Below, piece by piece: positions 21,146-31,495 of a DNA stretch of 64,000 bases. The stretch is from Thiohalorhabdus sp. Cl-TMA. GTDB taxonomy: Bacteria > Pseudomonadota > Gammaproteobacteria > Thiohalorhabdales > Thiohalorhabdaceae. The position numbers and the translations under genes were made by a program. Numbering within the stretch: position 1 is the first letter of the stretch; each line of letters begins with the position of its first letter. The stretch covers positions 1 to 64,000 of the forward strand of contig NZ_JBGUAW010000006.1 in assembly GCF_041821045.1 (NCBI RefSeq), read 5' to 3'. The notes beneath the pieces were generated by a model. The model saw nothing but the letters and a program-made list of their open reading frames with translations. It ran no database searches and had not been told where the DNA came from.

Positions 21146-22626
21146 TACTACTTTGTTAGTTATTGCCAGATCCGATCTTGTCCGGCATGTTGGCCCTCGT
21201 ATCCTGGACCATCAGGAGGGATGCGATGGGCATACCGCAAGCGGGCGAAGACCCTTTGCCGGACCTGGAGGCGTTTTTGGCCCCCTTTGGGAGGCTTCTC
21301 AAGCGCTCCGAGAGCCGTCATGCCCTGGAACGGTACACGACGGGGCTTTTGGCGAACATTCCGCATAAGACGGCCTCGGCGATGGGAGAGGTCTTGCCCG
21401 GGACGAATGGGCAACGGCTCCAGGAGCTGCTGACGCGAACGCGCTGGAACGCCGAGGCCATGGACCGGCTCCGGATCCAGCACCTGAGCTGGCATGCCCG
21501 CGCCGGGCAAGGCGCGCTGATCTTCGACGACACGGGCCTGCCCAAGAAGGGCGGTGCCTCCGTGGGCGTGGGGCGGCAGTATTCGGGCACGCTGGGCCGG
21601 GTGGACAACTGCCAAGTTCTGGTTACGGCCCATTACGTCGACCGGGCCTTCGACTGGCCGGTGAACGCCCGCCTGTATTTGCCGCAGGACTGGGCCGACG
21701 ATCCGGCCCGCCGGAGGCGGGCTCAGGTGCCGGAAGCGGTGCCCTTTCGGACCAAGGGCGAGATCGCCCTGACCCTGTTCGACGAGGCCCGGGTGGCCGG
21801 CCTGACGGTGGGGGCCGTGGTGGCCGATGCCGGGTACGGCGATCAGGCGCCGTTTCTGGATGGCCTGGAGGCCCGGGACCAGCCTTATGCCGTGGCCGTG
21901 GGCAAGCAGGCCCCTTTCCGGGACGCGGCCGCCGTGGAATCGGATCCCGGCGACCCCGAGCCGCCGCCCTACCAGGGGGTGGGCCGACCGCGGAAGGCGA
22001 GCACATTGGCCGACCGGGTGCCCAAGGCGACGGCCGAGGCCTTGATTGGTGAGCTGCCGGAATCGGCCTGGCAGGAGGTGGCCTGGCGCCAGGGCACGCA
22101 GGGCGCGCTGGTCAAAGAATTCGCGGCTCACCGGGTCTACCGAAGCGGTTCCCGGGGCGCCCATCGGCCCACCCGGGGCTGGCTGGTCGGCGAGCGTCCA
22201 CGGCCGGGTCATGCGGGCGACACCAAGTATTACTTCGCCTGGGGACTGGATGAGATGCCCCTGGCCGAGCTGGTGGCCCTGATCCACGTGCGCTGGGCCA
22301 TTGAACGGTTCTATCAGGACGCCAAGGGCGAGCTGGGGCTCGACGATTACGAGGGCCGGCTATGGCCCGGCTTTCATCGCCATGTGGCCCTGGTCATGCT
22401 GGCACACAGTTACCTGGCCTTGCAGCGGGCACTGGGCCCGAGCACGGAAAGGCCGCCGCCGAAGGACGGCGATCCGGGGAACGAGCCCCCGGATCCCGGG
22501 GGTTTTCCCCCCAGCGGACCGGGTGAGCATCGCCGCCCTGAGGCGCCGTGTCCTGACAACCTTGTTTGAGCAGATCATTACCGAGGCCCAAAAGGCTCGT
22601 GCCGGACCTTAAATAACAAAGTAGTA
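21146..22626 (+). mobile_element. IS701-like insertion sequence, 1,481 bp, CTAG duplication
   Basis: Terminal inverted repeats begin TACTACTTTGTTA at both ends. The four-base CTAG occurs on each side (21142-21145 and 22627-22630), as a target duplication. A single transposase occupies most of the element. The insertion just touches the stop codons of the two flanking genes without destroying either. Confidence 0.88.
21226..22569 (+). CDS. IS701-family DDE transposase
   Basis: 447 residues with the IS701/IS4-superfamily DDE pattern: first acidic strand GALIFDDTGLPKKGGASVGVG, second GAVVADAGYGDQAPFL, and the late YYFAWGLDEMPL then VRWAIERFYQDAKGELGLDDYEGR block bearing the catalytic Glu. The ATG at 21226 has AGGAGGG five bases upstream. 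The frame is intact, so the element may be active. The C-terminal tail is Pro/Gly-rich. Confidence 0.9.
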   Translation: MGIPQAGEDPLPDLEAFLAPFGRLLKRSESRHALERYTTGLLANIPHKTASAMGEVLPGTNGQRLQELLTRTRWNAEAMDRLRIQHLSWHARAGQGALIFDDTGLPKKGGASVGVGRQYSGTLGRVDNCQVLVTAHYVDRAFDWPVNARLYLPQDWADDPARRRRAQVPEAVPFRTKGEIALTLFDEARVAGLTVGAVVADAGYGDQAPFLDGLEARDQPYAVAVGKQAPFRDAAAVESDPGDPEPPPYQGVGRPRKASTLADRVPKATAEALIGELPESAWQEVAWRQGTQGALVKEFAAHRVYRSGSRGAHRPTRGWLVGERPRPGHAGDTKYYFAWGLDEMPLAELVALIHVRWAIERFYQDAKGELGLDDYEGRLWPGFHRHVALVMLAHSYLALQRALGPSTERPPPKDGDPGNEPPDPGGFPPSGPGEHRRPEAPCPDNLV

Positions 22627-25560: not shown

Positions 25561-25921
25561 TTAACGGAAATCCCTAGCGCTTTGCAGCAGGGCCACGCCG
25601 TGCTCGATGGCGATTCTTGCAATGAGGCAATCAATGGTGCTCCGCACCGTGATCTCCCCCCCGACACTGCCCGAAAATGCTCGCGGCCTCCGCATGGGTT
25701 TTTACGGGGTCCAGCGGGTGGAGAAAGCGCTCGGTGCCGAAGTAATCCGCAGCCGTTCATGGCTCTCGGGGGAGTCGGCCCCTTCCAGGATTTCCTGGTA
25801 AACCACCCCGGTGATGGCAAAGGGGGCGCCACCGGCCATGGTGCGCTCCAGCGCTTCCATCGCCGCGGTGGACGCCCCCCCGGAGATAATCGATCCAGAC
25901 GGAAGTATCCACCAGGATCAC
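25561..25921 (-). pseudogene. vapC: vapC toxin (PIN domain), three frameshifts
   Basis: Starts GTG with VILVDTSVWIDYLRG (first PIN Asp). A run of seven G (25875-25881) adds a base; the next frame reads MEALERTMAGGAPFAITGVV then YQEILEGADSPESHERL (second acidic residue). One base is lost near 25745, after which the frame reads DYFGTERFLHPLDPVKTHAE; a second G7 run (25656-25662) shifts again to TVRSTIDCLIARIAIEHGVA and ALLQSARDFR-stop. All PIN acidic residues are thus present but in three frames. GTG overlaps the antitoxin stop by four bases (GTGA). Confidence 0.82.
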
Positions 25922-26133
25922 GCAGAGCCCCCGCGCTCGCGCAGGGCCTTGTGGTCATAGTCCGGAGCGATACCCCCCTGTCCGCGTAGCTCCCGCAGAT
26001 CCTTGCGGCGATGGTGCTCCAGGAGCTCCCGCAGCGCCAGATCCACCAGCTCCCGCTTGGTTTTCACCGGGGCGTAGCGGAACGCCGCCTCTAACAGCTC
26101 CTCATCCAGCTCGATACTGGTCCGCATGACCAT
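25918..26133 (-). CDS. vapB: VapB-type antitoxin
   Basis: 71 residues: MRTSIELDEELLEAAFRYAP and TKRELVDLALRELLEHHRRK form a ribbon-helix-helix DNA-binding domain, and the acidic/aromatic tail (GGIAPDYDHKALRE) would thread into a VapC toxin. AAGGG precedes the ATG at 26133; a second ATG two codons on is possible. The partner toxin is frameshifted, so this may be a leftover antitoxin. Confidence 0.85.
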   Translation of the reverse strand: MVMRTSIELDEELLEAAFRYAPVKTKRELVDLALRELLEHHRRKDLRELRGQGGIAPDYDHKALRERGGSA

Positions 26134-26491: not shown

Positions 26492-26565
26492 CCCATGCCC
26501 ATCCCGCCCCGGCCTTCGCCAGCCAGCCGGGCTTCCCGCCCCTGGACCAGCCCCAAAAGGCCCAA

Positions 26566-26694
26566 TCACTGTCCGCCGCGCACGAGGCGAACGCGGTAGG
26601 CATCGTCCTTATCGCTGAATTTGACGACGCCATCATCGAAGTCGACCTTCCACGCGCGGCTCGAAAAGTCGGCGTAAGGCGAGGCCGACCAGTA
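26566..26694 (-). repeat. Putative variable region 1 (129 bp)
   Basis: Codons from TAC-TGG-TCG through the stop. Against variable region 2 at 27178-27306 (also 129 bp) there is no indel, the last 27 bases before and including the stop are identical, and similarity continues past the stop (GTGAT, GGGC, TTTTGGG). Confidence 0.6.
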
Positions 26695-27111
26695 CCACGA
26701 AGCGCCCGTGTTGGGAAAGATGGTGGCGTTGACGGCCGGTGAATGGCAGGCCCGCTCCACCAGAGAGGCCAGCTCGTTCTTGTTGGGCAGGCGCCAGTCG
26801 CTGTGGCCGAGGCTGTCGCCCGCGGTGCCCTCATTAACATTCTGCGCCCGCTGCAGGGCCTCCTGCCAGGTGTAGGTGGCCGCGCTGCCGGTGCAGGTGG
26901 AGCCGTCCCAGGTCTCGCCCTCGGAGCAGCGCTTCCAAGTGAGGCCGGTGCTCTTGTCGGTCACCGTGCCGTCGGTGCCGTTGTCCGTAATGTAGCGGCT
27001 GTCCGGGGCGGTCTTGGGGATGCTGTCATTGCAGGTCTGGGCGCCCGCGGGCCCGGCCAGGGCCAGGGCCAGCACCGCGACCACGGATTGCCGGATCAAG
27101 GTTGCGCGCAT
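26566..27111 (-). CDS. Secreted DUF1566 (Lcl C-terminal domain) protein A
   Basis: 181 residues: Sec signal ending AGAQ (about residue 25), then a DUF1566 domain with STGLTWKRCSEGETW, TYTWQEALQRAQ, LGHSDWRLPNKNELASLVE and YWSASPYA, ending VRLVRGGQ. DUF1566 is a C-type-lectin-like fold found in adhesins and among variable proteins of diversity-generating retroelements. The last 43 codons align without indel to the neighbouring gene but differ in 15 residues. The two genes lie head-to-tail 66 bases apart. Confidence 0.85.
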   Translation of the reverse strand: MRATLIRQSVVAVLALALAGPAGAQTCNDSIPKTAPDSRYITDNGTDGTVTDKSTGLTWKRCSEGETWDGSTCTGSAATYTWQEALQRAQNVNEGTAGDSLGHSDWRLPNKNELASLVERACHSPAVNATIFPNTGASWYWSASPYADFSSRAWKVDFDDGVVKFSDKDDAYRVRLVRGGQ

Positions 27112-27177
27112 GGGGATTACTCCAGGTTCCTATTCGGTTTGGGCTTCATCGCCTTCTTCCCGGCTCCCAAAAGCCCA

Positions 27178-27306
27178 TCACTGTCCGCCGCGCACGAGGC
27201 GAACACCGTTGGCATCGCCCTTAAAATTGTTGCCGACCAAGCCAGAGAAGAAGTAGACGTCCCACGCATAGCTCGAATTCCCGGCGTACGGCGAGGCCGA
27301 CCAGTA
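27178..27306 (-). repeat. Putative variable region 2 (129 bp)
   Basis: Partner of variable region 1. Fifteen codons differ, all changing the amino acid (for example GAC/TAC, GAT/TTT, TTC/AAC, TAC/AAC), while the other codons are the same at all three bases except one proline codon. Confidence 0.6.
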
Positions 27307-28329
27307 ATTTGAAGCAGCGGTATGGGGGAAATAGCCGGTGTCCACGGCCGGGCCAATGGTGCTGTTGTCGACGATGGAGGCCAGCTCGGCCGGGGTGGGC
27401 ATGCGCCAGTCGCTGTGGCCGCACAGGGCGGCGTTGTTGACTTCAGCCACGTAGCTCTCGGTGTCGCAGTCGATGCCCCCGGCGCAGGTGCCGCCGTCCT
27501 GGGTGCCGGCGCTGCCGCCGTTGGTATCGCCGTCGGGGCTGTACCAGGTGTAGGTGTGGTCCTTGTCCCGCAGGCCGCCGTCATCGGTCTTCCCCTCCCA
27601 CATCAGGCCGGTAACGTTGTCGCGCACGCAGGTCCAGTCGGTGGCATTGGCGTCCAGGGCGTTGCCGTTGGAACCGATCTTGGTGAAGTCGAAGCCGGCG
27701 CTGCCGCCGCCCTCCTTAGTCAGGGTACCGTTGCGCTCGGCGGCGTCGCGGCCGTAGACCGCGTCCTGGCCGGCGGGGACCGGATCGCCTTCCGCATCGG
27801 TGCCGGATTCGGTCTGCGTGGCCTCGGCAGTGTCATCGCAATCTACATGGTTGTCATGATTGCCGGTATTGCCGTAGGCGTAGTCGCCGCAGGCCGTGAT
27901 GCCAGTGTCGTTGAGGCCGGGCACGGCGACGGTGACCTCGGCCGTGGCCTCGTTGCCGTTACCGTCGGTGACCCGGTAGGTGAGGGCGTCATCGCCGAGG
28001 AATCCGGCGTCCGGGGTATAGGTCAGCGTGCCATCGCCGGCGATGTCCGCCGAGCCGTGGTCGGGGGCGGCGCTCACCGCGTAGGTGAGGGTGTCGTTTT
28101 CCGGGTCGCTGGCGGTCAGGGAGACGGTGGCCTCCAGGCCGCGGGCCGTGGTCAGACTGGCGGTTTCGGCGGTGGGGGCGCCGTTGTCCGTCTGCGAAGG
28201 ATCATTATCCTCCGATCCCCCGGAGCCTCCTCCGGAGCAGCCGCTCAGTAGATGGAGCATGGCTCCCGCAACCAGGACCAGACCCCAGCCATTTCGATTC
28301 TTAATGCGCTGCCAACCCGCCTTTGCCAT
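27178..28329 (-). CDS. DUF1566 lipoprotein B with cadherin-like repeat
   Basis: 383 residues. The signal has a lipobox (MLHLLSGC, Cys31) and a Gly/Ser linker. Residues ~50-135 are one tandem-95/cadherin-like Ig repeat (TASDPENDTLTYAVSAAPDH, DALTYRVTDGNGNEATAEV). A DUF1566 domain follows: VTGLMWEGKTDDGGLRDKDH, CGHSDWRMPTPAELASIVD, YWSASPYA, ending VRLVRGGQ. It is likely displayed on the outer membrane. The tail is identical to protein A at constant positions and different at 15 others. The 28330-28818 gap upstream shows nothing further. Confidence 0.87.
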   Translation of the reverse strand: MAKAGWQRIKNRNGWGLVLVAGAMLHLLSGCSGGGSGGSEDNDPSQTDNGAPTAETASLTTARGLEATVSLTASDPENDTLTYAVSAAPDHGSADIAGDGTLTYTPDAGFLGDDALTYRVTDGNGNEATAEVTVAVPGLNDTGITACGDYAYGNTGNHDNHVDCDDTAEATQTESGTDAEGDPVPAGQDAVYGRDAAERNGTLTKEGGGSAGFDFTKIGSNGNALDANATDWTCVRDNVTGLMWEGKTDDGGLRDKDHTYTWYSPDGDTNGGSAGTQDGGTCAGGIDCDTESYVAEVNNAALCGHSDWRMPTPAELASIVDNSTIGPAVDTGYFPHTAASNYWSASPYAGNSSYAWDVYFFSGLVGNNFKGDANGVRLVRGGQ

Positions 28330-30178: not shown

Positions 30179-31495
30179 CTATTCCCGCTCCAGCCTGCGG
30201 ATTCGATCCAACATTCCCCGTTTCACGGATTCATGGATTTCTTCGGGGAAACCGGCCGGCAGCTCGGCCTCGACCCTTTCCACCGCTTCCCGAGCCCTGC
30301 CCGCCATCTCCTCAAGGGCATCGTGTACGAGCCTTTCCGGCAGCCCCGCCTCTTGGCCGGATTGGGCGAAATGCCTGCCGAGGACCTCATGGACCTTGTA
30401 GTGACGACGGGCTCCCACGGACATGGCCAGACGCATGTGCTCGGGCTGGATCTGGCCCGATTCCAGGCTTGGCTGGACGCTTACCACATCATAGAGCGGG
30501 GTCAGGCGATAACTGCCCCCCGGAGCAAGAAACACACTGAAATTCTTGGCATGGCCATCGGTTGCCCCCAGCAGCCAGAACAGGGTCTGCGCCTTGAGGA
30601 CCGTGGCCTGATCTGCGTGCGGCTGATCGCTTCCCCGCAGCAGGCCCAGCACATCCACCAAGCCCGGCCCGCCTTCGTTCTGGTACTTGCGTGTCGGCGG
30701 GACCGACAGGGCCTGGCAGCAATCCTCCTGCGGGACCCGTAGCAACCGGCCATCCCGTGTCCACTGCCGGTCGAAACGCTCGACCACCAGGGCCTTCGTG
30801 CTACCGAAGGTCCGGATTTCCGCGTGGTTCACCGGCAGTCCGAATGCCTCGGCCATCTTCAGGCAATAGAATTCATTCTCGACACTGTTCGATAGGTCCA
30901 TGCCGTAGGGCAGGGTCCCGATCTGGGGCTTGAGGATGTGCGTGGTCGGGGTTGTACCGTGCGGCCGCAGCCATTGCCCGCCGTCCCACAGTAACGCGGT
31001 CTTTTCCTGGGCCCCGGCCACCGAAATGCGGAACGGGTCCTCGCGGCCAAGCCCCAGAGGGGCCTGGGCGAGCCCCTGGAGAAGCCGCTCGATGGCCTCC
31101 CCGTCGACCGCCTCGCCATGGATCATGGTGGAATCCGGGCCGACCGCCTCCCTCTCCTCTCCCGGGGCGAATTGCAGGGCACCGACACAATCGCGGCCGA
31201 TGGCGGCAAGAAGGCTATAGGCATCGGTCCCGGCGGCCCCCACCCGCTCCGCGACCCGGTGCCGCAGGACCTGGGCATCCGGGAGCAGGTTGTCGAACAC
31301 CGCGGAGACGGGCTCCCCCCGATAAGGATCCTCGCGCAGTGGGAGGGAGAGCGAGACCGGGAAGGCGTACTTCCATTCCAGCCAAGCGGGGTCATACCCA
31401 AAACGGATCTCCCCGCCCGGGCGCTTGGTGAGATGCCCGACTGGGCGATTGTTCAGGAGGACTCGCAGCGGCTCGTACCGAGGCCGACGCGGCAT
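30179..31495 (-). CDS. hipA: HipA-type toxin kinase
   Basis: 438 residues. N-terminal HipA domain (RVLLNNRPVGHL, FDNLLPDAQVLRHRVAERVG), then the kinase core: FRISVAGAQEKTALLWDGGQ, HILKPQIGTLPYG, VERFDRQWTRDG, catalytic DGHAKNFSVFL and metal-binding LTPLYDVVS. HipA kinases phosphorylate glutamyl-tRNA synthetase or other targets and cause dormancy. It overlaps hipB by one base. It appears intact. Confidence 0.92.
   Translation of the reverse strand: MPRRPRYEPLRVLLNNRPVGHLTKRPGGEIRFGYDPAWLEWKYAFPVSLSLPLREDPYRGEPVSAVFDNLLPDAQVLRHRVAERVGAAGTDAYSLLAAIGRDCVGALQFAPGEEREAVGPDSTMIHGEAVDGEAIERLLQGLAQAPLGLGREDPFRISVAGAQEKTALLWDGGQWLRPHGTTPTTHILKPQIGTLPYGMDLSNSVENEFYCLKMAEAFGLPVNHAEIRTFGSTKALVVERFDRQWTRDGRLLRVPQEDCCQALSVPPTRKYQNEGGPGLVDVLGLLRGSDQPHADQATVLKAQTLFWLLGATDGHAKNFSVFLAPGGSYRLTPLYDVVSVQPSLESGQIQPEHMRLAMSVGARRHYKVHEVLGRHFAQSGQEAGLPERLVHDALEEMAGRAREAVERVEAELPAGFPEEIHESVKRGMLDRIRRLERE

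Follow-up and report, generated by a model that had tools for sequence, protein, structure and literature searches.

Tandem Lcl_C genes in Thiohalorhabdus as probable orphaned targets of a diversity-generating retroelement

Results

Two tandem genes with terminal Lcl_C domains

The window analyzed here is a 64,000-nucleotide stretch of the genome of Thiohalorhabdus sp. Cl-TMA. On its minus strand lie two tandem genes, each with a terminal Lcl_C domain, the present name of DUF1566 (PF07603). The first in reading order, gene B (27178-28329, minus strand; 383 aa), encodes a long lipoprotein with a Big_9/cadherin-like arm and a C-terminal Lcl_C domain; the lipobox LSGC, read from the sequence, and the Big_9 match (E 2e-19) agree with an earlier sequence-only reading, which had described a lipoprotein with a cadherin-like arm. 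Gene A (26566-27111, minus strand; 181 aa) follows as a short Lcl_C gene, whose product is probably secreted, given a signal peptide-like N-terminus in the sequence. PF07603 matches gene A at E 6e-39 and gene B at E 3e-32, and the scores of 133 and 112 bits are well over the curated cut-off of 34.9, placing both in the family. Only 66 bp separate the genes (27112-27177, minus strand), at the site that holds a template repeat (TR) and a reverse transcriptase (RT) in relatives. No third Lcl_C gene is found in the whole genome. In the vicinity are a DDE transposase gene (DDE_5; window 21163-22569) about 4 kb from the pair, with which a mobile neighborhood is possible, the end of an antitoxin-like open reading frame adjoining gene A (25918-26133), and a HipA family gene (30179-31495).

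Codon-patterned variation at the gene ends

VR-A (26566-26694, minus strand) and VR-B (27178-27306, minus strand), the 43 terminal codons of gene A and gene B, align codon by codon over 129 bases with no indel at 77% identity. Twenty-seven codons are identical at all three bases, one differs silently (CCT/CCG), and 15 differ nonsynonymously; the final 27 bases up to the stop are identical, with partial identity past it, all as had been noticed from the letters alone. Counted back from the stop (-1), the variable codons are -35, -34, -31, -28, -26, -24, -23, -21, -19, -18, -17, -16, -14, -11, and -10. The 31 base differences, 12 of them transitions, are confined to 16 codons against an expectation of 24.1 by permutation; a value as low as 16 did not arise in 100,000 permutations. 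Codons of the form NNY occupy 26 of the 30 variable positions in the two copies, compared to 60% in neighboring genes (p 0.0014). Framework sites differ at only 1 of 63, compared to 0 in RT-bearing pairs of other species and 3-24 in the RT-less pairs compared; since this is as in RT-bearing pairs, the last common writing of the two ends would have been recent.

Relatives carrying the whole system

Scanning GTDB species genomes, we retained the best 80 loci. Five loci hold the pair with a TR and an RT of a diversity-generating retroelement (DGR), in the order long gene (VR1), TR, RT, short gene (VR2); they come from Desulfobotulus alkaliphilus (L097), Desulfobulbales (L099), Betaproteobacteria (L130), Gammaproteobacteria (L146), and Desulfocapsa (L162). 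Their RT is of the DGR type, with the motifs IGNL[TS]SQ...YVDD. Every locus carries the end sequence in triplicate: VR1 closes the long gene, the template immediately precedes the RT, and VR2 closes the short gene, an order that L162 shares with the other four. Between the Lcl_C domains of L097, L099, L130, and L146 lie 2.4-3.4 kb that include the DGR RT, whereas the gap in the window is 66 bp. When the aligned cores are compared, TR and VR disagree almost exclusively at template A in L097, L099, L130, and L162; VR1 of L146 has drifted further than the VRs of the other RT-bearing loci. At L099 (5784-8483), TR, RT, and the short Lcl_C target stand in a single open frame of 899 codons, either an RT-target fusion protein or a frame open by chance. 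Several framework-sharing Lcl_C open reading frames, some with a downstream DGR RT, are also found on five viral contigs from IMG/VR (L193, L197, L199, L203, and L208).

Mapping the window pair onto these templates, we found that its variable codons fall on template AAY codons in 14 of 15 cases for L097 (p 1.1e-6) and L130 (p 1.2e-6), 13 of 15 for L162 (p 2.7e-6), and 12 of 15 for L099 (p 4.3e-6), four tests that are not independent, as the templates are homologous, and that concern relatives' templates, the cognate template of the window pair not being among them. The lone variable codon off AAY in the L097 and L130 templates is -10, and each of the 22 differences at first or second codon bases coincides with an A of the L130 template. 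Both genes thus carry a 3' VR with a kept framework and variation at template adenines, the exception being eight third-base differences. The sequence-only reading of both gene ends as DGR variable regions is borne out by this homology to loci with TR and RT, and the adenine mutagenesis of AAY codons that it proposed fits the coincidence of variable with AAY codons.

VR-type ends and post-stop elements

Both copies close with the same 27-base IMH-like end, GTTCGCCTCGTGCGCGGCGGACAGTGA in VR-A (26566-26592, minus strand) and again in VR-B (27178-27204, minus strand), which is also identical to VR1 of L130. They finish in the VR-type end GGACAGTGA, as do the VRs of relatives, while the TRs of relatives end in GGAGCGTGA, GGATAGTGA, GGAGAGTGA, or GGAAAGTGA and differ from the VRs exactly there. 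To judge from these letters, the window genes appear to have the VR 3' end, distinct from the IMH* of a TR, that marks a DGR target. The exact IMH 25-mer had no match in viral contigs. Behind the stop codons stand the elements TTGGGCCTTTTGGGGCTGG of gene A (26547-26565, minus strand), where a small hairpin is possible (-10.0 kcal/mol over 30 nt), and TGGGCTTTTGGGAGCCGG of gene B (27160-27177, minus strand), where a small hairpin is predicted (-6.4 kcal/mol). They resemble a T-rich element (TTTTGGC-CTTTTG-like) that stands behind the VRs but not the TRs of relatives, and by this likeness they may serve the same function.

Third-base differences in variable codons

The third base differs in 8 of 15 variable codons but in only 1 of 26 framework codons (p = 0.0005), so that a caveat raised earlier about such differences concerns a real feature. 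Variable codons of the RT-bearing pairs have no third-base difference, and those of L095 and L121, pairs with no RT found in their locus, have one each. At the eight codons, A occupies only 1 of 16 third bases. Two variable positions encode K (AAA, AAG), which is unreachable from AAY through adenine change alone. Uniform drift after DGR loss is disfavored as the sole source by the same p value, since drift would strike framework silent sites too.

Search for the RT and template

The genome is a draft of 3.74 Mb in 45 contigs, 99.2% complete. Searching all of it with the RVT_1 profile, which recovered the RTs of all five relatives, we found no protein. No template repeat was found in the whole genome, where just the two VRs match; in other species, a BLAST search with the window VR does hit template as well as VR copies. 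Thus, of a complete DGR, neither the dedicated RT nor the AAY-rich template with an IMH*-type end is present in this assembly. Searches of the genome by tblastn with the L130 RT and for an Avd-like accessory protein (PF05635), both run without a positive control, gave no match. The absence of RT and template from the window, noted before, therefore extends to the rest of the genome, and the genome-wide search for both that had been proposed as a check, with its controls positive in relatives, leaves the accompanying claim of a DGR acting in trans unsupported. Lcl_C genes are missing from both other genomes of the genus, which also lack the DUF2333 gene that neighbors the pair.

Predicted fold

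AlphaFold predicts the fold of gene A with a mean pLDDT of 90.5. Its best Foldseek match in PDB is the C-terminal domain of Legionella Lcl (8q4e, E 4e-5), and weak hits to C-type lectins rank behind it (E 0.004-0.2), so the VR would be borne by a C-type-lectin-like fold. In this model, variable and framework residues appear to alternate on a predicted strand (W-K-V-D-F), as for a single exposed face. Both Lcl_C domains are likely to bind ligands, and both proteins are expected to remain functional as C-type-lectin-like binders, the product of gene B anchored to the membrane by way of its cadherin-like arm and that of gene A secreted.

Discussion

We consider it probable that the pair represents DGR targets orphaned through loss of TR and RT and now frozen, leaving two distinct binding faces. 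The two genes would have served as the long and the short target of a DGR, with first the TR and then the RT between them. Judging from homology and position, the latest writing of their 3' ends would have been adenine-directed mutagenic retrohoming that drew on one shared template, after which the TR-RT segment would have been lost from the genome, with the gap now 66 bp and the pair probably inactive.

A live DGR could instead serve the pair in trans, with TR and RT on a plasmid, on a prophage, or in an assembly gap of this draft genome, where the cassette may lie, and still be rewriting both VRs. The intact look of the VR ends and post-stop elements and the framework divergence of 1/63 would suit such a supply, and Treponema denticola has targets remote from the DGR core (PMC4891356). 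However, the RT, where found with such a pair, sits between the two genes, the short protein has no match in 50,697 phage records and only plasmid homologues below 60% identity, and the third-base differences imply that some change was not adenine directed. Because the assembly is 99.2% complete and yields neither an RVT_1 protein nor a template in searches that do recover both from relatives, orphaned targets are more likely than targets served from outside the assembly, and we regard a supply in trans as unlikely.

The third-base differences are the sole feature that plain orphaning leaves unexplained, since AAY templates do not give them. They could stem from a template in which some codons were not AAY, or from selection at these codons after the loss. 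A stronger version holds that variable codons are, or once were, rewritten at all three bases, either from a DGR template that is not AAY only (some AAA, GAA, or ATA) or by a second whole-codon diversifier that needs no DGR RT and acts on orphaned Lcl_C pairs. The restriction of the third-base excess to variable codons speaks for it, as do some Lcl_C pairs of isolate LS06H_Bin4 (G049) whose variation affects length and every codon position. Against it, A is found at 1 of 16 third bases of the eight codons, stop codons are a risk with AAA templates, AAY is what the RT-bearing Lcl_C relatives have in their templates, and several copies in the same isolate obey the AAY rule (13, 11, and 1 differences by codon position). 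Taken together, we find rewriting at all three bases improbable. The isolate itself (L060-L074) has 25 Lcl_C matches, many of them arranged as a long with a short gene and many situated at contig ends. Its only RT found was rejected as a DGR RT by its motif (QGSPLSP/YADD); the 986-aa open reading frame with this RT is presumably a CRISPR Cas6-RT-Cas1 fusion.

That no DGR was ever involved, the two genes being paralogous binding domains under diversifying selection with frameworks kept alike by constraint or gene conversion, would account for the third-base changes in variable codons, and tandem Lcl_C domains without a DGR RT in the locus are frequent (39 of the best 80 loci), but this reading is very improbable given the coincidence of variable codons with template AAY codons (p about 1e-6), the first- and second-base changes solely on L130 template adenines, and the conserved VR-type IMH end. 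Gene conversion was rejected as the origin of framework identity because its tracts cannot skip single variable codons between framework codons.

If the pair is orphaned, it shows an Lcl_C DGR module with two targets, found across several proteobacterial lineages, at a stage after the loss of its engine. Such targets would preserve traces of earlier diversification and would allow the borrowing of a DGR in trans to be tested. RT-first surveys will miss them.

DUF1566 is a common DGR target (PMC4159848; PMC6642488), and both orphaned DGR targets and DGRs with one template and two DUF1566 targets are already known. In the DGR of Vibrio cholerae 1311-69, one TR serves two separate DUF1566 open reading frames (PMC6642488), each with a C-terminal VR as in the window, whose assembly, in contrast, lacks TR and RT. 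T. denticola isolates keep DGR target genes without RT and TR, which their authors consider remnants of core components (PMC4891356). As in the window, targets persist there in genomes without the core DGR, but those targets are spirochetal, whereas ours are a gammaproteobacterial tandem Lcl_C pair with the usual place of the RT closed to 66 bp. Legionella Lcl, whose C-terminal domain (8q4e) is like gene A in fold and Pfam family, has host glycosaminoglycans as its reported ligand (PMC11162425) and differs in carrying a collagen-like stalk. Also close are the two-target DGRs of L130, L099, and L097, in which, unlike in the window, TR and RT lie between the genes and VR differences occur almost only at template adenines, but which share with it the same long and short Lcl_C genes, the same variable positions, and the same VR end.
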